Assembly: GCA_959606905.1 (NCBI GenBank)
Contig: CAUHML010000086.1
Span: 1 to 13,295, forward strand
Direction: 5' to 3'
Origin: an uncultured Bacteroides sp.
Lineage (GTDB): Bacteria > Bacteroidota > Bacteroidia > Bacteroidales > Bacteroidaceae
Length of the DNA stretch: 13,295 nt
Positions 260 to 13,295 of the stretch are shown here, in pieces; position 1 is the stretch's first letter, and each line of letters opens with the position of its first letter. The position numbers were made by a program, and so were the translations under genes. The notes under the pieces are model-generated. The model searched no databases, was not told the DNA's origin, and saw only the letters and a list, made by a program, of their open reading frames with translations.

Positions 260-2179
260 TTATTGGCTGATGTGTCCTTCGAAAGGCGAGGCAGGTAAAC
301 CGGCTGCGTTGTATAAGTTAGCATCATTGGGATTATCTCCCCAAGCATATCGTACAGAGACCGGTTGCTGTATTTCCTTATTCCATACTATTACTTTATT
401 GTTTTCGATTTTAGCCTGTGCCCATTGGTATTTTCCATCTGCGCCGGCAATGGCGAATCCTGATAAATAGCCATATTTATTACGAGCTACTAGTTGCTCG
501 TCACAAGCGTTAAAGGTGACCTCCAGTGCATCTCCGATTCTTTTTACCGACTGGAATATCGGGCCGGTGCAAACAATAGAGTTATATCCGTAATCATTGT
601 GGAGAGCATGCAAAGCAAGTCGTTTACCTACATCTTGTTTGTTGCGGGGATGTATGTCATTTTCTTCACCGATGTCTATAATGACGGCCTGTCCTGTATG
701 TGGTAAGGCCAGTGTCTTCGACTGTGTATCCCGCAGGTTTGCCCAATGACTTTCAGAGGGCTGCTTGGCCGGAGACATGAAGTTTGCTAATTGAACCCAA
801 TAAAATGGAAATTCGTTATTCCATCTACTTCTCCAGTCTGTAATTAAAGCCGGAAATAAATCAATGTATTCGTTGGCGCGGGCGGCATTGTTTTCTCCCT
901 GATACCAGATTACCCCTTTCATCCCCAAACCTACCAGTGGATGAATCATTGCGTTGAACAGCAAAGAAGGAAAAGCGTTAGGACCATATTCTACATAATC
1001 ATATTGTGCACTCGATACTGCAACTTTATACTTCCAATTATCACACAAAGGGAAAATTCGGTTGTTGACTTTCAGGTATACTTCATCTTTAGGACCATAT
1101 AGACCGCCTCCTCCACGATAGTCGGATATTTTAATAGTGATGGTATTCTGTTCCTTTAATACTTCTGCCGGGATCTTGTATAAACGTTTCAGGTCATATC
1201 CTACCGTTCGTCCTACTTCATGTCCGTTAACCCAGGTAATGTCATCGTCATCGATAGTACCGAGACTCAATTCTGCATCCTGTCCTAAACAGTTGGCCGG
1301 TATGGAAAACTGATAAGTAAACCATACAACTCCATCTATACCGGATAACTCTTCATTTGACCATAATGACGGAACAATATGTTCCTTCCAGTTTTCTGTA
1401 GGGGTGTTTTCTAAATACCATTTCTCTTTTTCTCCCGGTTCGTTTATGATGGCTTGTTCGAATTCTTTTTTGACTTTGTCACTGTGCTTGATGTATTCTT
1501 CGAATTCAGAAGAGCGCATACGGGCTAATGATTTTTCATATTTCGGGAAATGCTCTATCACTTCCATGCTCATCCAGGTTTCGATGTCCGTACCACCCCA
1601 TGAGGAGTTGATGAATCCGATAGGAATATTGAGTTTTTGGTATAATTCACGCGCAAAGAAATAGCCGACAGCTGAAAAATCAGAAGCGGAGGCGGGTGAA
1701 CATACTTCCCATTTACCTTTTAAGTCGGTTTTAGGAGTGTGCCCCATTTCTTGAATTACGTTGAATGAACGGATTTGAGGGTAATTGGCAGCTGCGACTT
1801 CTTCGGTAGCATGATTAGCGCTACGCAGACGAAACTCCATATTTGACTGTCCGCTACAAATCCATACTTCACCGATTAAAATATCTGTAAATGATAAAGT
1901 CTGCTTGAGGCTTTTTACATTTAGAGTATACGGTCCACCGGCTTGCATAGGAGGTAGGCTGACTGACCATTTCCCATTTTTATCGGTTCGGGTACTCTTT
2001 TGAGCATTTCCTAATGTTACGCTAATTCGCTCACCGGCACTGGCAGTTCCCCATATATTGATTGGCTTCTCACGTTGCAGCACCATGTGGTCTGAAAAGA
2101 AAGAAGGTACGGAAAGCTGTGCCATTATTTGTGATAGGACAAATAACAAGCAAACTGTTAATGATAGAAGTTTTTTCAT
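260..2179 (-). CDS. Exported sialate O-acetylesterase-like (SASA) carbohydrate esterase
   Basis: A 639-residue exported protein with a type I signal peptide (about 1-20, cleaved near IMA|QLS). It belongs to the SASA/SGNH esterase group that removes O-acetyl groups from sugars. Visible parts: an N-terminal beta-rich region (about 22-100); the nucleophile block CSGQSNME with Ser112; the block WYQGEN (425-430); and the C-terminal Asp508-x-His510 of the triad. Residues about 275-375 form an inserted galactose-binding or GH2-like jelly-roll (GTIDDDDITWVNGHEVG), which in related proteins splits the esterase fold. It is the last gene of the operon, 18 bases after the DUF5040 gene and just before the terminator. 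Despite the family name, sialic acid is unlikely to be the target, since no sialidase or sialic acid gene is near. Deacetylation of a plant or microbial polysaccharide is more likely (inference). Confidence 0.9.
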   Translation of the reverse strand: MKKLLSLTVCLLFVLSQIMAQLSVPSFFSDHMVLQREKPINIWGTASAGERISVTLGNAQKSTRTDKNGKWSVSLPPMQAGGPYTLNVKSLKQTLSFTDILIGEVWICSGQSNMEFRLRSANHATEEVAAANYPQIRSFNVIQEMGHTPKTDLKGKWEVCSPASASDFSAVGYFFARELYQKLNIPIGFINSSWGGTDIETWMSMEVIEHFPKYEKSLARMRSSEFEEYIKHSDKVKKEFEQAIINEPGEKEKWYLENTPTENWKEHIVPSLWSNEELSGIDGVVWFTYQFSIPANCLGQDAELSLGTIDDDDITWVNGHEVGRTVGYDLKRLYKIPAEVLKEQNTITIKISDYRGGGGLYGPKDEVYLKVNNRIFPLCDNWKYKVAVSSAQYDYVEYGPNAFPSLLFNAMIHPLVGLGMKGVIWYQGENNAARANEYIDLFPALITDWRSRWNNEFPFYWVQLANFMSPAKQPSESHWANLRDTQSKTLALPHTGQAVIIDIGEENDIHPRNKQDVGKRLALHALHNDYGYNSIVCTGPIFQSVKRIGDALEVTFNACDEQLVARNKYGYLSGFAIAGADGKYQWAQAKIENNKVIVWNKEIQQPVSVRYAWGDNPNDANLYNAAGLPASPFEGHISQ

Positions 2180-2197
2180 CCGATGAGTATTTGGTGA

Positions 2198-2977
2198 TTA
2201 TTCATTAATATATTCTTTGGGAAGCAATATCTTACGAAGCGTATCGGCAAAGATTGCAGCCATGCGCTGTTGAATAAATGAATGTTCTCCATGTGGCGGA
2301 TGCCATCCAAATATTTCTCCATGAGTCTCTTGTGAATCCCCAGTGTAAATTAGGCTATATTGTTTTCCTGTAACCGGATGTTTCTGGTTTTTGGAGAATC
2401 CGATGTATCTGTCGAATTCTACTACCGGGAATCCCCATTTTTCTGCCAGTTTTCGGACCGAAGTGTTGAATATCGGACGACTGTCATGCCAATGAGTACA
2501 TAAGACAATAGAAGCAGGTTTCCCATAAGGAGTGTTGTAATATCTGGATTTTGGATTGAATTTCTGGTTATAACAGTCTGATATGTAGCGCTTGATGACA
2601 TAATCATAGCAAACGGCATAGTCGGAAGCATCAAAAGGAGTTTTATAATCCTTGTAGTTCTCTTTTAAGTTTGCTTCGTTATATACGTCTTTTTCATGTA
2701 CTTGCATCAAGACAAATACATCAATGTTATCGAACTCTTCCGGGGTATAGAGAGTACCGTCCAGCATTTTATTTGCAGTGTGAGCAATAGATTCTGCACT
2801 TACAGCCCGATTGATGGGGATGGCGTGAAGGGCACGACATCCCATTTCAAACCACTTATTGTTAGGTTCGGCAAAAGATGCTCCGGATAATAAAATGGTA
2901 TAAGTGTCTTTATTTTGGGCTATTCCTGCTAAAGCGAGCAGGCAAATGAATGTGAATAAGGTGATTCTTTTGTACAT
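2198..2977 (-). CDS. Exported DUF5040 / SGNH-hydrolase-like protein
   Basis: A 259-residue protein with a type I signal peptide (about 1-20, LALAGIA|QNK), so probably periplasmic. I place it in the DUF5040 group of Bacteroidales, recalled from memory and not searched. It has an SGNH-like outline: a first beta strand ending LLSGASF, with Ser34 where the Ser of the usual GDS block would be; a PINRAVSAES segment after the next helix, like block II; VLMQVHEKD where GxND would be; and WHPPHGEH near the C-terminus followed by a helix with QRMA, like the block with the catalytic His (His226 candidate). The canonical GDS, GxND and DxxH motifs are each altered, so activity is uncertain. It starts 2 bases after the GH78 stop and sits next to a second esterase. 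That suggests translational coupling and a role in removing acyl groups (inference). Confidence 0.75.
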   Translation of the reverse strand: MYKRITLFTFICLLALAGIAQNKDTYTILLSGASFAEPNNKWFEMGCRALHAIPINRAVSAESIAHTANKMLDGTLYTPEEFDNIDVFVLMQVHEKDVYNEANLKENYKDYKTPFDASDYAVCYDYVIKRYISDCYNQKFNPKSRYYNTPYGKPASIVLCTHWHDSRPIFNTSVRKLAEKWGFPVVEFDRYIGFSKNQKHPVTGKQYSLIYTGDSQETHGEIFGWHPPHGEHSFIQQRMAAIFADTLRKILLPKEYINE

Positions 2978-2979
2978 AG

Positions 2980-5646
2980 TTATCGTTGATTGATTAATTG
3001 GTGAATAAAATCAAGTTCAAGTGAATGTTTTCCGGCTTGTAAAGTTATAGATTTTTGGGGTTCTGGCATTGTAAAAGGAACAAATGTTGCAGAAGTGCCT
3101 GCCGGAATATCGATTGTATAACGGATGCAGTCATTAGTTTGACGAACCCAGTTGATATTTAACCAGCCATAGGGAGTATTATAGCGTATGGTAAGTTCAT
3201 TCATGTCTGCCGGAAAGAAAGGTTTTAGCAAAATATGCTTGAATCCGGGATGTTTTTCATCTATCTGAATTCCTCCCAGTCCTTTGTATAGCCATGCTCC
3301 TATTTCTCCGAACATAATATGGTTATATGAGTTGTCGATAACGACATCTGTCCGCCAATTTTCATGTAGAGTTGTAGCACCTTGTTTGATCCAGTACCCC
3401 CAGGAAGGATAGGTGTCTTGTGATGCGACTTTGTAAGCTGTTTCCGCATATCCGTTATCTGACAGGGCGGAAAGTAGGGCCTTGCTTCCTAATAAACCGA
3501 CGTCCAGATGATAATCGTCTTTTTCTACCAATTCATGTAGTCTGGCAGCAACTTTCTTTTTATCTTCTTCCGGAACGATTCCCCAGTATAATGGCATGGC
3601 AAGTTCTGTCTGTGTTCCCTCTGCATATATTCCTGTTTCCTTATTGAGAAAACTGGTGTTGATAGCCTCTTTTATTTTTTGTGCCAGCGTGTTATAATAG
3701 GAGGCATCTTCGGCATATCCGAAAAGTCTGGCTGCTTTGGCTAGAATACAGACGTCCGTATAATAATAGATAGAGGAAGTCAAGGTTATATTGCTTTTTG
3801 AGCGTACAGGTACCCAGTCGCCCAGTCCCCAGTCTGTAAGATGATTGGTTGATATGGATTCTATATAGGAGACATATTTTTTGATTGGTCCGTACATGCG
3901 GCGGAGTAATGTGGTATCTCCGTAAAATCGATAAATTTCCCAGGGGATAATGGCGACAGCACTCGTCCAGTCGACCCCGTTGGCCCAATCATAGCCCCAT
4001 ACAGAAGTTGGGATGATACATGGGAGGACTCCGTTGTCTTTTTGTTCATCACAAAAGTCGTTCATCCATTTCTCATATATAGAGATACCATCGAAATTGT
4101 ATAATCCTGTTTCTATGGCAATATGTGCATCTCCTGTCCAGCCATTCTTTTCCCGTTGAGGGCAGTCAGTCGGGTAACCGAACAAGTTGGCTAAATAGGA
4201 ACTGTTAGTGGCTTTCCATATTTTGTTTAGCAGATCGGATGACGAAGACCAGTAGCCGATGATCGGAACATCACTGTGCATTTCTACTGCAATAAGATTT
4301 TCGTCGGATAATTGAATGGGGGCAGATGATGAGACTTCTACAAACTGAAAACCTTTGTAGTTGAATTTGGGCATGAATCTATCTTGCTTTCCGCTAAGTA
4401 TGACGATGTCTGTTTGAAAAGGATCGCTGTCGTCTGTCGGCCGGTAGTGATAATCTATATTTGCCATGTTTACCATACCGTTTTTGTCTAAAAGTTCCCC
4501 ATGTTTCAGGCGCAGTTTTGTTCCTTTTTTTCCTTTCACTTTTAGCTCGGTGACACCTGCAATGTTTTGGGGGAAATGATAGACGTAGCAGCTGTCATTT
4601 ATTTTTTTACATTGAGTTGCTGTATAGCGGGCCGTTTCACGAATCGGATGCATAACTTGTGATTTGATCGTTTCCGTAGGCGATTCGGTTTCTTGTGCAT
4701 GATACCATCCGGTAGCGTTGAATCCGGGGGAGTCCCAGCCTGCTAATTCTTTCTGTGCATCATAATGCTCGGCTGTATAGATGCTGTTGAAAATAACCGG
4801 GCTGTCAGTTGTTTGCCAGGTTGAGTCAGTACCCAGATATTCTGTTGTTCCATCTGTGTAACGCAGATGGAGTTGTGCTGTGAATTTAGGGCGGTTTCTC
4901 CATGAAGCCTTGTCGAAAAACCATACTGCTGTGGATTGATGATTATACCAGCCGTTCCCCAGTTGTACTCCTATTACATTTTCACCCAGAGATAGTAATG
5001 ACGTAACATCATGAGTGACTGATAGTATACGTTTGTCGAAATGTGTATACATAGGGTCCAGGAAATGATTTCCTGCCCGTTGCCCGTTGACTGAGAGCTC
5101 ATGCAGGCCTGCCGATGCAATAGTGAGTAAGGCTTGCTCGATTGTTTTGTCTAATTGGAAGCTCTTTCTATAATAGGGTGCCGGACGGTATGTGATTTCA
5201 TGTTTGTCAGTAATCCATTTCCCTTTCCAGTTGTCGGGTGATAAACATCCTGTCGTGAAGGAGGATATTGGAGAAAATGTAGTTTTCTGTTTGGAAGAGG
5301 TTTGATAGCCTATTTTCCAATAATACGTTGTATATGAATCTAATGGTTGTCCATCATAGGAGACTCTTATGGGAGCTCCTATGATGGATTTGTTCCAATA
5401 ACCGGACTGTCTGTCTGATAATTGAGTACTGTCTGTTGATAGCCATATCTCAACTCTGTTGATACTATCTTCCTCTAGTAGCGGAAGTTTCCAGGAGAGT
5501 CTGGGAGTTTGAGTATCTACTCCTACAGGAACGGGTATATTCTCACATTTTAATTCAAATGGCGTTTTTAGCTCTTGAGGTGCACATGAGAATAGGGTTG
5601 TACCCAATAGTAAATATAAATAGGACCGAATTGGAATATGAGCCAT
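2980..5646 (-). CDS. GH78 alpha-L-rhamnosidase, lipoprotein
   Basis: An 888-residue enzyme that would release alpha-linked L-rhamnose from poly- or oligosaccharides. I chose the ATG at 5646. It gives a clean lipoprotein signal, MAHIPIRSYLYLLLG then TTLFSC with the lipid Cys at 21, and leaves 25 bases after the transporter stop. The frame is open to an ATG at 5727, but that adds 27 charged residues in front of the signal and overlaps the transporter. Order of parts (from the chosen start): Fn3-like domain (about 30-135), rhamnosidase N and concanavalin-like regions (about 140-450), the (alpha/alpha)6 catalytic barrel (about 460-800), and a C-terminal beta domain. The family signature DCPQREKNGWTGD is present, with Glu499 as probable general acid. 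Glu762 in TTLHENW is the likely general base (less certain). Terminal rhamnose on the substrate is implied. Confidence 0.93.
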   Translation of the reverse strand: MAHIPIRSYLYLLLGTTLFSCAPQELKTPFELKCENIPVPVGVDTQTPRLSWKLPLLEEDSINRVEIWLSTDSTQLSDRQSGYWNKSIIGAPIRVSYDGQPLDSYTTYYWKIGYQTSSKQKTTFSPISSFTTGCLSPDNWKGKWITDKHEITYRPAPYYRKSFQLDKTIEQALLTIASAGLHELSVNGQRAGNHFLDPMYTHFDKRILSVTHDVTSLLSLGENVIGVQLGNGWYNHQSTAVWFFDKASWRNRPKFTAQLHLRYTDGTTEYLGTDSTWQTTDSPVIFNSIYTAEHYDAQKELAGWDSPGFNATGWYHAQETESPTETIKSQVMHPIRETARYTATQCKKINDSCYVYHFPQNIAGVTELKVKGKKGTKLRLKHGELLDKNGMVNMANIDYHYRPTDDSDPFQTDIVILSGKQDRFMPKFNYKGFQFVEVSSSAPIQLSDENLIAVEMHSDVPIIGYWSSSSDLLNKIWKATNSSYLANLFGYPTDCPQREKNGWTGDAHIAIETGLYNFDGISIYEKWMNDFCDEQKDNGVLPCIIPTSVWGYDWANGVDWTSAVAIIPWEIYRFYGDTTLLRRMYGPIKKYVSYIESISTNHLTDWGLGDWVPVRSKSNITLTSSIYYYTDVCILAKAARLFGYAEDASYYNTLAQKIKEAINTSFLNKETGIYAEGTQTELAMPLYWGIVPEEDKKKVAARLHELVEKDDYHLDVGLLGSKALLSALSDNGYAETAYKVASQDTYPSWGYWIKQGATTLHENWRTDVVIDNSYNHIMFGEIGAWLYKGLGGIQIDEKHPGFKHILLKPFFPADMNELTIRYNTPYGWLNINWVRQTNDCIRYTIDIPAGTSATFVPFTMPEPQKSITLQAGKHSLELDFIHQLINQR
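5350..5388. repeat. Perfect 13-base inverted repeat inside the GH78 gene
   Basis: Arms 5350-5362 and 5376-5388 are exact reverse complements (TCCATCATAGGAG and CTCCTATGATGGA) around a 13-base spacer. In the messenger this can form a long unbroken hairpin over codons 87-99 of the gene (from the 5646 start), in the N-terminal domain. No T tract follows on either side, so it is not a standard terminator. The arms are clearly visible; any function is unknown. Confidence 0.85.
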
Positions 5647-5671
5647 ATTGGTTAGTTGGTTAGTGATGAAT

Positions 5672-7066
5672 TTACTTTTTTCTTCTCTCTTCGAGTTCTG
5701 TTGATATTTCATATAATCTTTTTTCATTTAACGGATAACGTGAAATGAAGAATGCTGATAGCATGGTGGCAATTGCCGGGAAGATACTCATCATCATACA
5801 AATGCCGGTTTGAGCAAAGTCGGATTGGATTACATTTGCTTTGAAACCGAAATAGGCCAGTAGCCATCCGGTCAAAGCACCTCCGATTGTCCAACCGAAC
5901 TTTTGAGACATGGACGAAGAAGAGAATATCAGGCCGGTTGCCCGTCTTCCGGTTTTCCATTCGGAATAGTCTGATATATCTGCATACATAGACCATAATA
6001 AAGGAGAAATAATACCCGCACAGATACTTATTAAGACCTGTAAACAAAGAATTCCCCAGATAAAATCTTTAGGAAGGAAGTAGAATAAAACACTTAGAAT
6101 GGTAGCGCCAACCATTGCTACAAAATAAGTTTTCTTTTTACCGATTCTTTTGGTGAGTGATGGCACAAACATGATTCCGAGGATATTGGCGGCTTGTCCT
6201 AATACCAAGTAGATCGTGATTAGAGTAATGGCACTATTCATGAATGAGAAAGAGAATGTATCGGAGCTGTCTACATAATATTTGAAATAGAATACAGCAG
6301 AACCGTCACGAAGAGAATTGAACACTAATGCCATGATTCCTGCGCATAAAAGAATCCACCAGGGTTTGTTTCTGCCCAGATCTTTCAGATCTTCTTTCAG
6401 TGATCCTTTTTCTTCCTTTATGGGCTGCACTCTTTCTTTTGTCCATAGAAAAGTTAATAAGAACATTCCACTAGCCATAATCGCAAATACGACTGCAGCC
6501 ATCTGCCAGCCGAAAGCGATGTCAGGTATATTTTCCGTTATCTTCATTTTACTGAATATATCAACCAGTGGCTCAATGAGGAATAGTACCAGAATACTTC
6601 CTCCAAAAGCAAATGTCATGCGGTAGGAGGAGAACTCTGTGCGTACTTGTGGATTGGCAGACATTACTCCTAATAGAGATGCGTACGGAACATTGATTAA
6701 TGAATATACCATCATCATAAGGGTATATGTGGCATAGGCAAATATTATTTTGGTAGTCATGTTATCTCCAAAAGATGAGAAGGTCAGTATACCACAGATG
6801 CCGAATGGTATGGCTATCCATAGTAGGTAGGGGCGGAATTTACCCCAGCGTGAGTTTGTCCGGTCGCCTAATATTCCGACAAACGGATCGAGGAAAGTGT
6901 CCCAAATGCGTGTGATAAGGAACATTGTTCCTACCACTGCCGAAGAGATACCTACCACGTCTGTGTAGAAGAATAGCAGATACATTGTGAATAACTTCCA
7001 AAACATGGAAGAAGCAGCATCTCCTAATCCATACCCGATTTTTTCTCTTAGTTTTATGTTTTCCAT
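5672..7066 (-). CDS. GPH-family (MFS_2) sugar:cation symporter
   Basis: A 464-residue inner-membrane protein with about 12 hydrophobic segments and no cleavable signal. It belongs to the glycoside-pentoside-hexuronide:cation symporter family (relatives: melibiose MelB, YicJ, xyloside carriers), which moves glycosides with Na+ or H+. Family marks are the N-terminal GDAASSMFWK, the segment TFLDPFVGILGDRTNSRWGK (57-76) leading into FRPYLLW, and the C-terminal YADISDYSEWKTGRRATG (361-378) followed by a serine-rich stretch and QKFGWTIGG. Length is normal. It lies 10 bases after the GH130 gene. That pairing suggests it imports the disaccharide which the cytoplasmic phosphorylase cleaves, most simply beta-mannosyl-1,4-glucose. 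Substrate and coupling ion cannot be read from the sequence, and transport of released rhamnose or another glycoside is possible. Confidence 0.92.
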   Translation of the reverse strand: MENIKLREKIGYGLGDAASSMFWKLFTMYLLFFYTDVVGISSAVVGTMFLITRIWDTFLDPFVGILGDRTNSRWGKFRPYLLWIAIPFGICGILTFSSFGDNMTTKIIFAYATYTLMMMVYSLINVPYASLLGVMSANPQVRTEFSSYRMTFAFGGSILVLFLIEPLVDIFSKMKITENIPDIAFGWQMAAVVFAIMASGMFLLTFLWTKERVQPIKEEKGSLKEDLKDLGRNKPWWILLCAGIMALVFNSLRDGSAVFYFKYYVDSSDTFSFSFMNSAITLITIYLVLGQAANILGIMFVPSLTKRIGKKKTYFVAMVGATILSVLFYFLPKDFIWGILCLQVLISICAGIISPLLWSMYADISDYSEWKTGRRATGLIFSSSSMSQKFGWTIGGALTGWLLAYFGFKANVIQSDFAQTGICMMMSIFPAIATMLSAFFISRYPLNEKRLYEISTELEERRKK

Positions 7067-7076
7067 GGTGATGTAT

Positions 7077-8246
7077 TTATTGTTTCAGGTATTGTTTATT
7101 GTGGTTTACCATAGTAATGATCCGCTTCACAGATTCTATAGAACGGAAACCGTCGGTTGGTGTGTGCAGACAATAATCTACAAGCTGGCTTACTGTTGAT
7201 TCGGCTACATGAAGACGGGTGTCCGAAGACGCATAATAGATATAAATTTTTCCGTTATCATCTTCAATCCATCCGTTTGAGAATAATACATTCGATACAT
7301 CACCGATTCTTTCTTCTCCTATAGGGGCCATGAAATAACCTGCAGGTTCAGCTATAATTTCTGTCGGATCTTCTAAAGAAGTCATGTATAAGTATAATAC
7401 ATAGCGTAATCCGGCTGCGCATCCTCTTACACCATGTGCTAAATGTAACCATCCTTGTGGAGTTTTAATGGGGTGTGGCCCTTCTCCATTTTTTACCTCC
7501 TTGATCGTATGATAAAACCGTTTATTGATGATTTTTTCCTCTTTTATTTCGGCATGACAGATGTCATCTATGAGTGCCCATCCGATACCTCCTCCATTGC
7601 CGGCGTCAATAAAACCATCTTGAGGGCGGGTATACAGGGCATACTTCCCATTCACAAATTCCGGATGAAGCACTACGTTACGTTGCTGGCTCGGAGATTT
7701 CAGATCCGGCAAGCGTTGCCATGTTTTTAGGTCTTTTGTTCGTGCAATACCTGCAACGGCTACTGCGGAAGATAAATCACCGGCTGGAGCGTTTGTATCT
7801 TTGCGTTCCGCACAAAAAATGCCATAAATCCATCCATCTTCATGTGCGGTCAGGCGCATATCGTACATATTGGTATCAGGAATGTCTGTCTCCGGCATTT
7901 CTATCGGATAATCCCAAAAACGAAATCCGTCTACGGGACTATTACTTTCTGCTACTGCAAAGAATGATTTTCGGTCTGCTCCTTCCACACGCGCCACAAG
8001 ATAGTATTTATGATTGATCTTGATGGCTCCCGTATTCATTACAGCGTTGATACCAATTCTTTCTTCCATGAATGGGTTTTGTTTTTCATCAAAATCATAC
8101 TTCCAGATGAGTGGTGCATGTTCTGCTGTTAATACAGGGTGGTAGTAACGTTTATATATACCGTTGCTATTGTTACATATCTCATTTTTTCGGTTGATAA
8201 GAGCTTCATAATTTTGTGTTAGCTCTTCTAATCTATTACTTTTCAT
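7077..8246 (-). CDS. GH130 4-O-beta-D-mannosyl-D-glucose phosphorylase
   Basis: A 389-residue cytoplasmic enzyme (no signal peptide) of GH130 subfamily 1. It should catalyse Man-beta-1,4-Glc + phosphate to alpha-mannose 1-phosphate + glucose (EC 2.4.1.281). It closely follows the characterised Bacteroides fragilis enzyme as I remember it, in length (about 390) and in long shared stretches: [16 protein letters not shown] (86-101), [19 protein letters not shown] with catalytic Asp129, [45 protein letters not shown], and [14 protein letters not shown]. The five-bladed beta-propeller fold is expected. It sits 26 bases after the GH140-like gene and 10 before the symporter. In mannan loci this enzyme normally works with mannobiose 2-epimerase, which is not in this window. 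The mannosylglucose may therefore come straight from the polysaccharide (inference). Confidence 0.93.
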
Positions 8247-8272
8247 ATTCTATAGTTATTTTTCTCGGTTAA

Positions 8273-9634
8273 TTATTCTATAATTAAAACCCAGTCATTT
8301 CCTTTTCCCTTTGTGGGAGAGGATACGGGAATGGTATCTGCTGTTGTATTTTGATGGAATGTGATTCTTCCATTGCGAGGATTCATCCACTTTAAAGACC
8401 GTTTGGATGCCTTCATTGAAGGCAAATAAATCGTTCTCTCTCCACCTTGTGGAAAATATACTAATAAGTAGTCTTTGTTGCCGAATGCTACGGGATAGTT
8501 TTTATTTTCTAAAGGTATATTGCCAAAGATGGTTTGTTGGTTTTTTCCTTGAGTAAAGTCAAATTTTTCCCATAATCTGCGAAAGTGAATTAAGTCCCAT
8601 GCTCCTTGTTTATCCATTGATTGGTACCATGGAGTGTCGGCGTCACATTTAGGCTCACGTCCGGTATCAAACATCTGCCATATATCATTACAGCCGTATG
8701 TATATCCACAAGCTCCGCTGAACATACTTTGGTAAAGTGTATGGCGGATATCATCATCTCCAAATCTTCCATTTTCTTTTTTGAAATTGATCGGAATATT
8801 TTCATATCGGGGTTCTCCGTCCATGCATGGCTTGTGTGGTTCCTTTTTTAAATCGGGCAAAAGCAGACGTTGATAGATTGCGAAATCTTGTTGTGCGTGT
8901 CCGGATTGACACATATTAAAATCCAGCCACGAAGCATTGTGAAACCAGAACGAGGATGAGTGCTCTCCATGAGGATGATAGGTCATCAAATGGTTTTTGT
9001 CTACACTTTTAATACCGGTTGCTAATGCATTCCAAATGGCAAAGTTTTTTCCGTCTCCACTTCGATCACCTCCTATTATCCATATCAGATTGGGTGCGTT
9101 CATATAACGTTCTCCTAACCATTTGCCGTATCTATATGCATTTTCCGGTGTAAAAATCTCCGGTCCTTTTCCCCATTGTTTGTCTACCTTATCTCCCCAG
9201 GTTGGTAATAGAGCTATGTATAAACCTTTGGCTGCTGCCAGAGAAATAACTTTGTCTACATGAGTGAAATAGCCGGGAGCGGGCTTGTCAATATTGCCGT
9301 CAATTAACTTAGGTTCTCCGTTAGATGAAACATCCATATCATCTAATTCATCCAGGATTACCGTTTGTATGACGGTAAATCCTTTTTCTCTGCGATTCTC
9401 CAAATATAGTTCAGTCTCTTTGTCATTTAAGCGGCTGATGAGTTCCCATGCTGTATCTCCCATGTAGAGAAAAGGAGTTCCGTCACTGTATTCTAGGTAA
9501 CGTCCTGAAGAATTTACTCTTAAGTTTCCTTTGGATAGATTCGTGGCGTTTCCTGTCCACCGGTCTTCTTGGGCGGAAGTTCCAGTTATACAAAACATGA
9601 ATAAAATATAGCAGATGGAGAATCGTTTGAACAT
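8273..9634 (-). CDS. Exported GH140-like (DUF4038) glycoside hydrolase
   Basis: A 453-residue exported protein with a type I signal peptide (about 1-21, GTSA|QED). It has a DUF4038-type (beta/alpha)8 barrel (about 36-360) and a small C-terminal beta domain (about 365-453) like the 'putative collagen-binding' domain usually found with DUF4038. Diagnostic segments are DGTPFLYMGDTAWELISRL near the N-terminus, WIIGGDRSGDGKN with Asp190, and CMDGEPRYENIP with Glu274. These two acidic residues sit where the catalytic Asp187 and Glu284 lie in BT1012, the GH140 apiosidase that acts on rhamnogalacturonan II. Length matches that group. Only a few members of the family have known activity, so apiose specificity should not be assumed; another exo- or endo-acting role is equally open. 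The gap to the GH5 gene is 4 bases, indicating strict co-expression. Confidence 0.85.
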   Translation of the reverse strand: MFKRFSICYILFMFCITGTSAQEDRWTGNATNLSKGNLRVNSSGRYLEYSDGTPFLYMGDTAWELISRLNDKETELYLENRREKGFTVIQTVILDELDDMDVSSNGEPKLIDGNIDKPAPGYFTHVDKVISLAAAKGLYIALLPTWGDKVDKQWGKGPEIFTPENAYRYGKWLGERYMNAPNLIWIIGGDRSGDGKNFAIWNALATGIKSVDKNHLMTYHPHGEHSSSFWFHNASWLDFNMCQSGHAQQDFAIYQRLLLPDLKKEPHKPCMDGEPRYENIPINFKKENGRFGDDDIRHTLYQSMFSGACGYTYGCNDIWQMFDTGREPKCDADTPWYQSMDKQGAWDLIHFRRLWEKFDFTQGKNQQTIFGNIPLENKNYPVAFGNKDYLLVYFPQGGERTIYLPSMKASKRSLKWMNPRNGRITFHQNTTADTIPVSSPTKGKGNDWVLIIE

Positions 9635-9638
9635 AATT

Positions 9639-10679
9639 CTATTTTTTTAAGGTACTTGTATATTTCTCAATGATAGGCATTTGCGGTCTGTCTTTTCCGT
9701 CTTTGGGGGTGATTGCCATGAAATAGGTATCCCACCACGGACCCGCAGCCCAATATGTACCATTGATTCCATTTTCTTGTAAATATCCCAAGAATAAGTC
9801 GAGGGTTTCATTCCAACGGGGATCATTGTCGGGGATTCCATATTCTCCGATAAAACCATGGAATTTATTCTGTTTAATCCATTCTACAAATGGTTTTACC
9901 CGGTCGATTCCTTTCTCCGGATAACATTCTTCCTCTTCGTATGAATATTTGTACGTACCGGATGCATCCTTGTCAAAATATACATGAGCTTCAAAAGCAA
10001 GGTTATTAGCCGGGTCTTTTAAGAATTTGAGTGTATCACTCTGCTCGATCCAACGCTCTGCTGATGACCAGTCGTTGCCGCCTACCATAATAAGCGTATT
10101 TGTGTCGACTTCTCGTATGGCATTGATGGACGCTTGTGCCATGTCGAACCACTTGGTTTCCGGGGCCAGATCATGTGGTTCGTTCATTAGCCCGTAACCA
10201 TATATGTTTTTAAAAGTGGAGAATTCTTTAGCGATAGCTTGCCAGAAAGAAGCCAGGTCTTCGATTGTTAATCCGTTGTTTCCAATGAGGGTATGTTCGT
10301 TGTTCATGAAGCGGCGACAGTAATTATGTAAGTCAAGAATAACCACCATATCGCGTTTCTCTGCTGCTCTGACCAATTCTTTCATTTTATTGAGGTCATG
10401 CTGGTTTAGCGGTCCTTTTAAGTCAAGTTGTAGCCGTTCCCATTTGAATGGTAACCGGATAAGTTTCAGCCCTTTCTTTTGCCAATATTCGAGGTCTTGA
10501 TCTGTCGGGTAGGTATAGTCTTTATTATACTCACCGGGGAAAGATGAACCGAAGTCCGCGCATGCCAAGTTTACTCCGTAGGGTTCACCTGTCTCTTTTG
10601 CCGGAGGTTGATTACTTTTACATCCATTTAGAGTAAGAAGGCTAAGTAGTAGAAAAGCCGAAATAAAAACTTTTTTCAT
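9639..10679 (-). CDS. GH5 endo-beta-glycanase (cellulase family), lipoprotein
   Basis: A 346-residue lipoprotein (LLTLNGC, lipid Cys20) with one GH5 barrel and no added binding module. Seen in order: the start motif YGVNLACADFG, IRLPFKWERLQ (74-84), VILDLHNYCRR with His118, the acid/base in GLMNEPHD (Asn166-Glu167), AHVYFD with His232 and Tyr234, the nucleophile in GFIGEYG (Glu279), and WAAGPWW near the end. The PFKWERLQ and DLHNY pattern is most like subfamily GH5_5 endo-beta-1,4-glucanases (judged by eye). Endo-cleavage of a beta-1,4-glucosyl or gluco-mannosyl backbone is therefore the best guess, with beta-mannanase less likely. Residues after Cys20 (KSNQPP) lack an acidic surface-export signal, so it may face the periplasm. 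It lies between the GH2 gene (10-base gap) and the GH140-like gene (4-base gap). Confidence 0.9.
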   Translation of the reverse strand: MKKVFISAFLLLSLLTLNGCKSNQPPAKETGEPYGVNLACADFGSSFPGEYNKDYTYPTDQDLEYWQKKGLKLIRLPFKWERLQLDLKGPLNQHDLNKMKELVRAAEKRDMVVILDLHNYCRRFMNNEHTLIGNNGLTIEDLASFWQAIAKEFSTFKNIYGYGLMNEPHDLAPETKWFDMAQASINAIREVDTNTLIMVGGNDWSSAERWIEQSDTLKFLKDPANNLAFEAHVYFDKDASGTYKYSYEEEECYPEKGIDRVKPFVEWIKQNKFHGFIGEYGIPDNDPRWNETLDLFLGYLQENGINGTYWAAGPWWDTYFMAITPKDGKDRPQMPIIEKYTSTLKK

Positions 10680-10689
10680 AATGTTCTGT

Positions 10690-13260
10690 TTAATAGGGTG
10701 ATTGAAGATTCCAGCCTTTTACAATAACTGGAGATTCCAAATTTATTTTTAATATTTTTGATTCCTGTGGGTTAAGCCATATATAGTTCTCCGAAACGAT
10801 AAGTTGGTCCATTTTTTCTGGTACTTCTACGTGTACTCCGATAGCAGGGTGCTTTCCTGTATTTGTTAAAGTCACCATATTACCTGTGCGTTCCATTTTA
10901 ATTTCTGTTTGGGGCATTGATACGATGGAGCCCGGACGTACTTCGTAATTGGTAAAGTAATAATTCCGATATATGTTTTTGTTATCTTTGATTATGTCCA
11001 GAACAAAGAATAGCATGGTCGATTTGGTTTGTTCTCTATTCAGATTTATTTCTCCTAGTTTTTTGACGACATTATCATCGCCGATACCGTTGAATGTATG
11101 GGTGGCAACAGTATCTAGTAATGCATTGTATATAGACACTTTGACTTGATAAGGTTCTTTCTCTAATGTTTGGCAGTCATCAAGTAGATAGGCAGGAAGA
11201 CTGACTTCTTGACTGGCAAGGTTGCTGCGGTCAAACAGCATGACTGCTGCTAACGGGGCAAAAGACTTTTGCACAAAATAGTGAACGGGTTTGATGATAC
11301 CATAATAGTCTACACATGACCATGATACACCAGGATAGTTATCGTTCATCTTATAATAAAGTGCTCCGGTAGTATGAGGCCATAATGTGCGTGCCCGTTC
11401 TAATGTATGGCGCACTCCTACTACTTGTGCTAACTGTGACCCGAGGATGAAAGAAGCCAGCGAGTCCTTCGGCATAAAATAACCGGAATATTGAGTAAGT
11501 TTCTCCATTTCTCTCATCGTTCCGAAGATAGGAGTGTGGTGCGTGAAATTACCGCTCCTTTGGGGAGGCCACACTTCTTTTTCCTCGTCCAAATATCTAC
11601 GCACTGTCTCGATGTGAGGCAATGATGCTATCCCAAATTCTCCCCAAAAAGGAGCGGTCATATTCAAATTGTGATTAAGATGAGCATCGTCCCACCAGCA
11701 GTTATAATTGTGCAGGCTGCCTCCCCAGGCTTCCCCACGATGGAAGGGACGTGTTCCGTCAAGTTCTATACTAAGTCGTCCCATCATGTCAATTGCAGGT
11801 CCGAATGGTTTATCTGATTCATTCCCTGCTCCCCACATAATAAGAGAAGGGTGATTTCTTAATCGTTTGGTATTTCTTTCCACTGTTTCTTGCAGGATAG
11901 TGTACGGTTGCGTGTTATGGCTATTCCAGGCCGTTGGCCATTCTTGCATGACTAAAATACCATATTTATCGCATAATTCGTAAAAATCATCGGTTTCGGG
12001 CATTCCTCCTCCCCAGGCTCTTAACATTTGTATGTGCTGCCTTTGGGCTATCTGGAGCAAATGTTCGTATTTATTTCTTGAGAAGTCCATTAATGCATCC
12101 ATAGTGCACCAGCCTGTTCCTTTTATGAACATCGGCTTGCCATTGATGACGAATGTCCAGTTATAATAATCTTCTTTAGCACCATCAATTAATGGTCTCA
12201 TCTCAATAGTCCGTATACCGAACGACGTTTTTATATGGGCTGTCTTCCCTTTTTGTGGAACGAAGAATAGGTTGAGGTCATATAGTGATTGTTCTCCTCT
12301 GTCATTGGGCCACCAAAGATGCGGATCTTTGATTTGAAAGTCTAAAGATAAAGTTTCCTGTTTTTTCGGACTATTTATGTCGAAACGATAATATTGTGTT
12401 ATTCCTTTGAAGTTCTTGGGAGATACTTCTGCATATAATACTCCTTTTAATGGAGATGATTTTTTATGCAGATCAAGAGTTAAGCGCATTTGACCATCGA
12501 GCGAACGAGTAGCGATGAAGGGTGATTCTATTTCTACTGCGGCTTGTTCTTTTAATTGAACACTACGCCAGATTCCTAATGATGGGATTTGTGCATAATG
12601 CCATCCATAAACGCAATTGAATACAACTGTATATTTCCAACTTTCATTTGCGTTGGGAGGCCAGTTGCCCAGAAACATTTGAGGGATGGCTTCTAGTTTT
12701 ACTATGAGAGTGTTTTTATTTTTTAAATAGTTACCTATTGAAAAATCGGGCCCTCCGAACATACCTTCGTGTGTTCCTAAAAGTTTTCCATTGAGCCATA
12801 TTGTACATTTGTTAGCAATTCCGCCAAAAGATAATATACAGTGAGATGAGGGGGAGTCTAGTTCGAACTCCCGCTTCATCCACCATGTCTTGTAAGATTG
12901 TTTTTCTGCAATAGAGTCATTCTGTCCGATGTATGGATCGGGTATGATTCCATTTTCTACTAATGCGGTGTGAATACTACCAGGCACATGGGCAGGTATT
13001 TGATCTGTCCAGATAGTGTGTAAACGTTCTTTTTCAGTTCCTCCTTCTGCCAGTTGCCAGGTTCCGTCCAAAAAGATGTTTGCAGGAGTATCTCTGACAA
13101 GAGGAATATTTCCTGTTTCAGTCATCTGTATACCTTTTACTTCCATTGGAGATAGCTTTGCTGCAAAGCTTTCTCTGTCTATCTCATCCATTGATTTTTG
13201 TGCAATAACCATTGGAGTGGATAGCAGTAAAGTGATAATAGTGATGATTCGAGTTCTCAT
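10690..13260 (-). CDS. Exported GH2 beta-mannosidase-like glycoside hydrolase
   Basis: An 856-residue exported enzyme (signal about 1-20, MVIA|QKS). It has the GH2 layout: sugar-binding jelly-roll (about 60-235, with WLNGKLLG), immunoglobulin-like sandwich (about 240-350), catalytic barrel (about 370-670), and C-terminal beta domains. The segment RAWGGGMPETDDFYELCDKY places it with beta-mannosidases and exo-beta-glucosaminidases rather than beta-galactosidases. The acid/base is Glu481 in WGAGNES and the nucleophile Glu541 in FWGEFG. Their 60-residue spacing is shorter than in the Bacteroides beta-mannosidase BtMan2A (Glu462 and Glu555), so specificity may differ. A periplasmic beta-mannosidase would also compete with the cytoplasmic phosphorylase for Man-Glc. 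It is the first operon gene visible. The start is supported by the signal peptide; the 35 bases upstream show no clear promoter. Confidence 0.88.
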   Translation of the reverse strand: MRTRIITIITLLLSTPMVIAQKSMDEIDRESFAAKLSPMEVKGIQMTETGNIPLVRDTPANIFLDGTWQLAEGGTEKERLHTIWTDQIPAHVPGSIHTALVENGIIPDPYIGQNDSIAEKQSYKTWWMKREFELDSPSSHCILSFGGIANKCTIWLNGKLLGTHEGMFGGPDFSIGNYLKNKNTLIVKLEAIPQMFLGNWPPNANESWKYTVVFNCVYGWHYAQIPSLGIWRSVQLKEQAAVEIESPFIATRSLDGQMRLTLDLHKKSSPLKGVLYAEVSPKNFKGITQYYRFDINSPKKQETLSLDFQIKDPHLWWPNDRGEQSLYDLNLFFVPQKGKTAHIKTSFGIRTIEMRPLIDGAKEDYYNWTFVINGKPMFIKGTGWCTMDALMDFSRNKYEHLLQIAQRQHIQMLRAWGGGMPETDDFYELCDKYGILVMQEWPTAWNSHNTQPYTILQETVERNTKRLRNHPSLIMWGAGNESDKPFGPAIDMMGRLSIELDGTRPFHRGEAWGGSLHNYNCWWDDAHLNHNLNMTAPFWGEFGIASLPHIETVRRYLDEEKEVWPPQRSGNFTHHTPIFGTMREMEKLTQYSGYFMPKDSLASFILGSQLAQVVGVRHTLERARTLWPHTTGALYYKMNDNYPGVSWSCVDYYGIIKPVHYFVQKSFAPLAAVMLFDRSNLASQEVSLPAYLLDDCQTLEKEPYQVKVSIYNALLDTVATHTFNGIGDDNVVKKLGEINLNREQTKSTMLFFVLDIIKDNKNIYRNYYFTNYEVRPGSIVSMPQTEIKMERTGNMVTLTNTGKHPAIGVHVEVPEKMDQLIVSENYIWLNPQESKILKINLESPVIVKGWNLQSPY

Positions 13261-13295
13261 GGACAGTATTTATTCTGATTATTGTTGTGTACTTT
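13261..13295 (-). other. Leader before the GH2 gene, cut by the window edge
   Basis: These 35 AT-rich bases lie upstream of the GH2 start. On the minus strand no TAnnTTTG box is visible, and no strong ribosome-binding site. The promoter, or a preceding co-transcribed gene, must lie beyond the window. Confidence 0.5.

Follow-up and report, generated by a model that had tools for sequence, protein, structure and literature searches.

The 13,295-nucleotide stretch of DNA analysed here (the window), from an uncultured Bacteroides sp., appears to hold the enzyme-coding half of a polysaccharide utilization locus (PUL) of 13 genes. On balance, and with some reserve, we favour the reading that this PUL serves a neutral polysaccharide that carries O-acyl groups and L-rhamnose on a beta-1,4-linked Glc/Man backbone, from which Man-Glc would pass directly to a GH130_1 phosphorylase without the help of an epimerase. 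The backbone would be rich in Glc-Man and perhaps strictly alternating. Overall, the locus resembles a PUL of the mannan type that has been rebuilt to handle a Glc/Man polymer bearing rhamnose and acyl groups; its set of genes matches no known polymer.

The window lies on the minus strand of a 6.47 Mb, single-contig genome (G000:C1:3761647-3774941). A previous sequence-only reading had listed eight minus-strand genes between positions 260 and 13260, combining GH130_1, GPH, GH2, GH5, GH140-like, GH78 and two esterase-like proteins. All eight are present as open reading frames, and their Pfam families (SASA, DUF5040, GH78-type Bac_rhamnosid, MFS_2, Glyco_hydro_130, Apiosidase (PF13204), Cellulase (GH5) and GH2 domains) agree with that mix. 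The gaps of 2-26 bases that it described hold at six junctions (18, 2, 10, 26, 4 and 10 bases) and fail between the GPH and GH78 genes, which overlap by 56 bases if GH78 begins at its first ATG, or lie 25 apart if it begins at the Met at codon 28, where a lipoprotein-like signal starts. Rfam returned no match in the window or in the upstream stretch L008. The features, with predicted activities, are as follows.

13279..13295, minus strand: final 17 bases of the gene for GH5b, a GH5_5-like endoglucanase that has a lipoprotein-like signal; the remainder lies outside the window at G000:C1:3760578-3761663 (position computed from the window placement).
10690..13260, minus strand: GH2, beta-mannosidase-type (Pfam and solved relatives; signal peptide by eye; GNE 479, GEFG 540).
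9639..10679, minus strand: GH5c, GH5_5-like endoglucanase (Pfam and solved relatives; lipoprotein-like signal; NEP 166, GEYG 278).
8273..9634, minus strand: GH140-like (PF13204) enzyme (Pfam, solved relatives and homologue labels).
7077..8246, minus strand: GH130_1 4-O-beta-D-mannosyl-D-glucose phosphorylase (Pfam and solved relative; no signal peptide by eye).
5672..7066, minus strand: GPH-family sugar:cation symporter (Pfam MFS_2 and relatives).
2980..5727, minus strand: GH78 alpha-L-rhamnosidase (Pfam and relatives; likely true start 5646).
2198..2977, minus strand: DUF5040 protein, predicted SGNH/GDSL-fold esterase (Pfam and a structure model of the 99% identical homologue P0121).
260..2179, minus strand: CE20-type carbohydrate esterase, whose SASA domain is interrupted by a beta-sandwich insertion.

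The window truncates the locus. Five more co-directed genes lie upstream, encoding a GH5_2-like enzyme, SusC (L008:14281-17541), SusD (L008:17551-19317), an SGBP and GH5b, and the adjacent susC-susD pair with its co-directed CAZyme genes makes the whole a Sus-type PUL. The best solved relatives of the GH5_2-like protein are cellulases and endoglucanases (5i2u, 438 bits), and GH5b is closest to endoglucanase 4ee9 (272 bits); the GH5_2 and GH5_5 subfamily labels are our assumption, based on these solved neighbours. The SGBP carries TIG and SGBP_B_XBD (xyloglucan-binding-type) domains. The first PUL gene is immediately preceded by a divergent DUF2961 gene (L008:10886-12883), and at the other end CE20 is followed by a GNAT protein gene and then a gyrase-B-type gene. 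No regulator was recognised by Pfam among the nearest flanking ORFs. About 5 kb past the PUL end, a minus-strand cluster of GH3, GH2, GH31 and a hybrid two-component regulator (L010:10111-19996) has a xyloglucan-like make-up. Joint work with this cluster was set aside because it lies on the other strand behind genes for a GNAT protein, a gyrase-B-type protein, a cytidylyltransferase and an S41 protease.

The GH130 protein matches the 4-O-beta-D-mannosyl-D-glucose phosphorylase 3was with 674 bits, and its D129, within a YDMR motif, aligns opposite D131 of the BfMGP reference, a residue that we take to be catalytic. Closeness to BfMGP and the kept Asp place it in GH130_1 as a predicted mannosylglucose phosphorylase acting on Man-beta-1,4-Glc. 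For the GH2 enzyme, 11 of the 14 closest solved relatives are named beta-mannosidase and the other three GH family 2 only; all three GH5 proteins have cellulases or endoglucanases as best solved relatives, with mannanases appearing only at weak scores. The GH140-like protein matches PF13204 with 375 bits and has solved matches in 8t9w and 3kzs; NCBI labels several of its homologues GH140, a match at the family level that leaves apiosidase activity putative. Both esterase-like proteins of the sequence-only reading do look like esterases. One is a CE20 enzyme, an SGNH esterase with an inserted beta-sandwich that matches CE20 structures over its full length (7kmm, presumably XacXaeA, over 23-634, and 9h4u over 3-634; GQSN 110, DIHP 508). 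The other, DUF5040, is modelled as an SGNH-fold hydrolase with invariant Ser and His, for which an esterase role is predicted. Structure 9h4u is probably Fl8CE20_II, judging from PMC12313940.

Signals read by eye suggest where these proteins may act. GH5b, SusD and the SGBP are Cys-anchored with acidic residues following, a feature frequent in surface lipoproteins; GH5c and GH78 are Cys-anchored without acidic residues; GH2, the GH140-like protein, DUF5040 and CE20 have plain signals; and GH130 has none. In the model that we propose, whose locations and cleavage points are predictions, surface GH5 endoglucanases would cut the polymer, and SusC/SusD and the SGBP would take up the fragments. Once in the periplasm, these would lose acyl groups to CE20 and DUF5040, rhamnose to GH78 and a further side sugar to the GH140-like enzyme, while GH5c and GH2 would trim the backbone. 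Mannanases give mannobiose, which needs epimerisation before GH130_1 can act. A glucanase-type cut would instead leave Glc at the reducing end and so yield Man-beta-1,4-Glc directly, making mannobiose 2-epimerase dispensable; GPH would import this disaccharide and GH130_1 would convert it into Man-1-P and Glc. The absence of GH3 and GH94 from the PUL fits a backbone poor in Glc-Glc; three other GH130_1 loci (L060, L078 and L079) do carry GH94.

Among the best 80 of 545 GH130_1 loci, an epimerase homologue was detected by tblastn in 67 (35 of the 42 loci of at least 20 kb and 32 of the 38 shorter ones). The long loci with none are L011, L012 and L069, which represent the PUL of the window, together with L031, L044, L075 and L086; the short ones are L039, L052, L054, L061, L081 and L088. 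Besides the three of this PUL, ten loci thus show no epimerase, six of them under 20 kb. GH5_5 homologues occur among these 80 only in L011, L012 and L069, none with an epimerase, an association that is not independent because the three loci belong to one PUL lineage. L044, L075 and L086 (about 9983-11176) show a further setting for this enzyme: GH130_1 adjoins SusC/SusD sets of other kinds, and tblastn found neither a GH26 nor an epimerase homologue within 21 kb.

The PUL has a sparse, patchy distribution. Of 393 genomes from the order, 10 encode a GH5c-like protein at E 1e-60 or better, some without this PUL. In the window's own family, with at most six candidates scored per genome, SusD matches at 1e-60 were found in 8 of 201 genomes; those outside the window genome show 39-49% identity, against 73-74% for the orthologues that G021 and the Barnesiella-type genomes carry. 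In a phylum sample 2 of 395 genomes gave a SusD match, the second at 37%. Gene content of relatives was read by tblastn; longer antisense frames mask GH2, GH5c, SGBP or DUF5040 in some ORF lists. In G021, which belongs to a different family, the full set of 13 genes recurs with its order unchanged, and a CE7-type gene is added before DUF5040. Five genomes share one genus code (Barnesiella-type): G109, G209, G356 and G980 have 12 of the 13 genes, DUF5040 not being found in the stretches examined, and G981 shows 11, the GH5_2 end falling outside the stretch read. CE20 is complete in L012 (G109) and L011 (G209). A Proteiniphilum variant (L069) keeps SusC, SusD, the SGBP, both GH5_5 genes, the GH140-like gene and GH130; GH2, GPH, GH78 and CE20 were not found within the 21 kb examined. 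Inside this variant (L069:12475-16287) lie genes for an 836-aa and a 431-aa protein without Pfam match, the former having 2801 homologues at 1e-10, mostly unnamed among the 120 listed. Because the PUL is so rare and scattered, its distribution suggests horizontal spread.

Independent support for a rhamnose-bearing substrate, as the sequence-only reading had proposed, comes from the co-occurrence of the PUL with L-rhamnose isomerase (RhaA). RhaA is encoded in all seven PUL genomes (G000, G109, G209, G356, G980, G981 and G021) and in one of 12 comparison genomes from the same two families that have no GH5c match at 1e-90 (present in G978; absent from G977, G979, G292, G135, G982, G983, G984, G310, G374, G985 and G232). 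The overall Fisher p value of 1.6e-4 comes from few related genera and is not corrected for relatedness; within f109 the counts are 5 of 5 versus 1 of 4 (p 0.048), and within f22, 1 of 1 versus 0 of 8 (p 0.11). G166, which has RhaA and a different PUL, was left out of this comparison. All six PUL genomes from f109 and f22 carry a third GH5_5 gene, which none of the 12 without the PUL has; the window genome has two. In G021 (L132:2397-10450) this third gene directly precedes, on the same strand, genes for an AraC-type regulator, an FGGY kinase, RhaA and RhaT, and its neighbours in G109 are different. The G021 protein has 765 aa and a weak C-terminal DUF6383 match, and a 263-aa gene after the rhamnose genes looks aldolase-like by eye. 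The L069 genome, a draft of unstated completeness, gave no RhaA match, and its PUL variant shows no GH78.

The sequence-only reading had placed the locus apart from mannan loci, citing the lack of GH26, mannobiose 2-epimerase and alpha-galactosidase. None of these enzymes is in the PUL, and the flanks, which might have completed a standard mannan locus, add GH5, SusC, SusD and SGBP genes and neither GH26 nor epimerase. The implied distance from mannan loci does not survive, because the SusC/SusD pair is kin to the transporters of beta-mannan PULs. About 150 kb away (L143, about G000:C1:3590082-3604747), the same genome has a second locus, a standard mannan PUL with SusC, SusD, an SGBP, two GH26, GH36, GH130, GPH and an epimerase. 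Identity between the two loci is 57.5% for SusC and 48.5% for SusD. GH26 occurs in the genome only at 3596410-3598175 and 4729299, and the nearest epimerase match is at 3590133. A maximum-likelihood tree built from 16 SusC+SusD pairs and rooted by hand on L151 places the PUL beside GH26-associated PULs; the uniting node, which excludes a GH92 locus, has a support of 71, and GH92- and GH27-associated loci branch next. GH26 was assigned by Pfam in L143 and L029 and by BLAST alone in L145-L148 and L151, where matches are weak (27-29%; 38% over 90 residues) except for one of 87% in L145. The transporter pair thus appears to belong to a family that includes those of beta-mannan PULs and also serves GH92- and GH27-linked loci. 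The PUL shares this kinship with canonical beta-mannan PULs and lacks their GH26 and in-locus epimerase.

Such kinship would also be expected if the PUL targeted ordinary plant glucomannan or galactoglucomannan, with the standard mannan PUL supplying GH26, GH36 and epimerase in trans and with GH78 and the GH140-like enzyme acting on contaminating side chains. The GH26 and epimerase genes elsewhere in the window genome could indeed act in trans, and G109, G209 and G356 each have one GH26 and one epimerase match, none near the PUL. Known mannan loci can also hold GH5_2 (PMC13276840) or GH5_26 (PMC9860051) glucanases, as far as the available text of these sources goes, the latter enzyme cutting glucomannan. 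In S. copri, the available text of PMC12704710 has mannobiose and Man-Glc both arising from glucomannan through a GH26 (GH26A), so a glucanase is not the sole source of Man-Glc. We nevertheless consider this explanation unlikely. G021 (99% complete) has the full PUL and no match genome-wide to the epimerase family or to GH26, the one mannanase family searched for there out of a range that also includes GH5_7, GH113 and GH134; RhaA tracks the PUL; and GH78, the GH140-like gene and CE20 are kept across families.

Eudicot beta-galactoglucomannan, a plant hemicellulose, is a quite improbable target. A glucanase cutting its strictly alternating Glc-Man backbone (PMC10735049 and PMC11662442, in the portions available) would release Man-Glc, one domain of the SGBP is of a xyloglucan-binding type and, in the accessible part of PMC12313940, the founding CE20 acts on xyloglucan oligosaccharides. 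Against this, the 13 genes include no alpha- or beta-galactosidase-type gene, and no alpha-galactosidase was found among Pfam-scanned flanking ORFs either (upstream to 3740000 and downstream to 3789999, with six ORFs at L008:1-7785 left out); moreover, GH78, the GH140-like enzyme and the co-occurrence with RhaA would be unaccounted for.

We give very little credence to an acidic bacterial exopolysaccharide or O-antigen, such as a gellan-, acetan- or xanthan-like polymer. A relative in G166 (L122/L123) mixes homologues of GH5c, GH130 and GPH with GH94, GH29, heparinase II/III-type and GH88-type genes, and the epimerase matches of that genome lie on other contigs. However, its SusC/SusD share only 29% identity with their counterparts in the PUL, and the PUL has neither a lyase nor a GH88/GH105 (unsaturated glucuronidase) gene, which gellan and acetan would be expected to need. 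The G166 locus also has BNR_4 genes and is apparently for an acidic polymer. RG-II was set aside as a substrate because none of the 13 genes is of a pectin-cleaving type.

No description matching the 13-gene set was found in the available portions of the literature searched. The comparison with published loci was confined to their gene lists. Bacteroidota beta-mannan loci (L143, and, from partial texts, B. cellulosilyticus BcMUL, PMC13276840, and S. copri PUL 7/8, PMC12704710) share SusC/SusD, GH130_1 or GH130 and, in some, GH5 glucanases and esterases; the SGBP and GPH of L143 are related ones as well. Unlike them, as far as those texts describe, the PUL of the window lacks GH26, GH5_7 and epimerase, has GH5_2/GH5_5-like endo enzymes and adds GH78, the GH140-like protein, CE20 and DUF5040. 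The Muricauda marine galactoglucomannan PUL (PMC9860051) shares a GH130 mannosylglucose phosphorylase, a GH5 endo-beta-1,4-glucanase and a Glc/Man backbone, but has three GH26, GH27 and an epimerase, and no rhamnosidase appears in the available part of that paper. The Spirosoma CE20 cluster IV locus (PMC12313940, in part) likewise combines CE20 with GH2, GH78 and a cellulase-type family (GH9), a likeness of gene list and not of sequence; it differs in having GH26 and GH29, and its authors assign it to N-glycans. The protein family PF13204 is common to the GH140-like protein and the RG-II apiosidase GH140; the two settings differ in that the PUL has no pectin-cleaving gene. The RG-II enzyme is, we presume, BT1012.

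A fuller version of our preferred reading can be offered only tentatively, namely that this is a rare, scattered PUL type for an undescribed rhamnosylated, acylated, alternating Glc-Man polysaccharide, with glucanase cutting in place of mannanase and epimerase and with a GH140-like activity on a side sugar new to that family. If the preferred reading is correct, mannosylglucose phosphorolysis would have a second route of entry, with the site of the cut standing in for the epimerase. A 13-gene locus kept by bacteria of several families would likewise suggest that a rhamnose-bearing polymer of this kind exists, be it a fibre of the glucomannan type or a microbial polysaccharide, and would offer a conserved setting for testing GH140-like and DUF5040 proteins outside RG-II.
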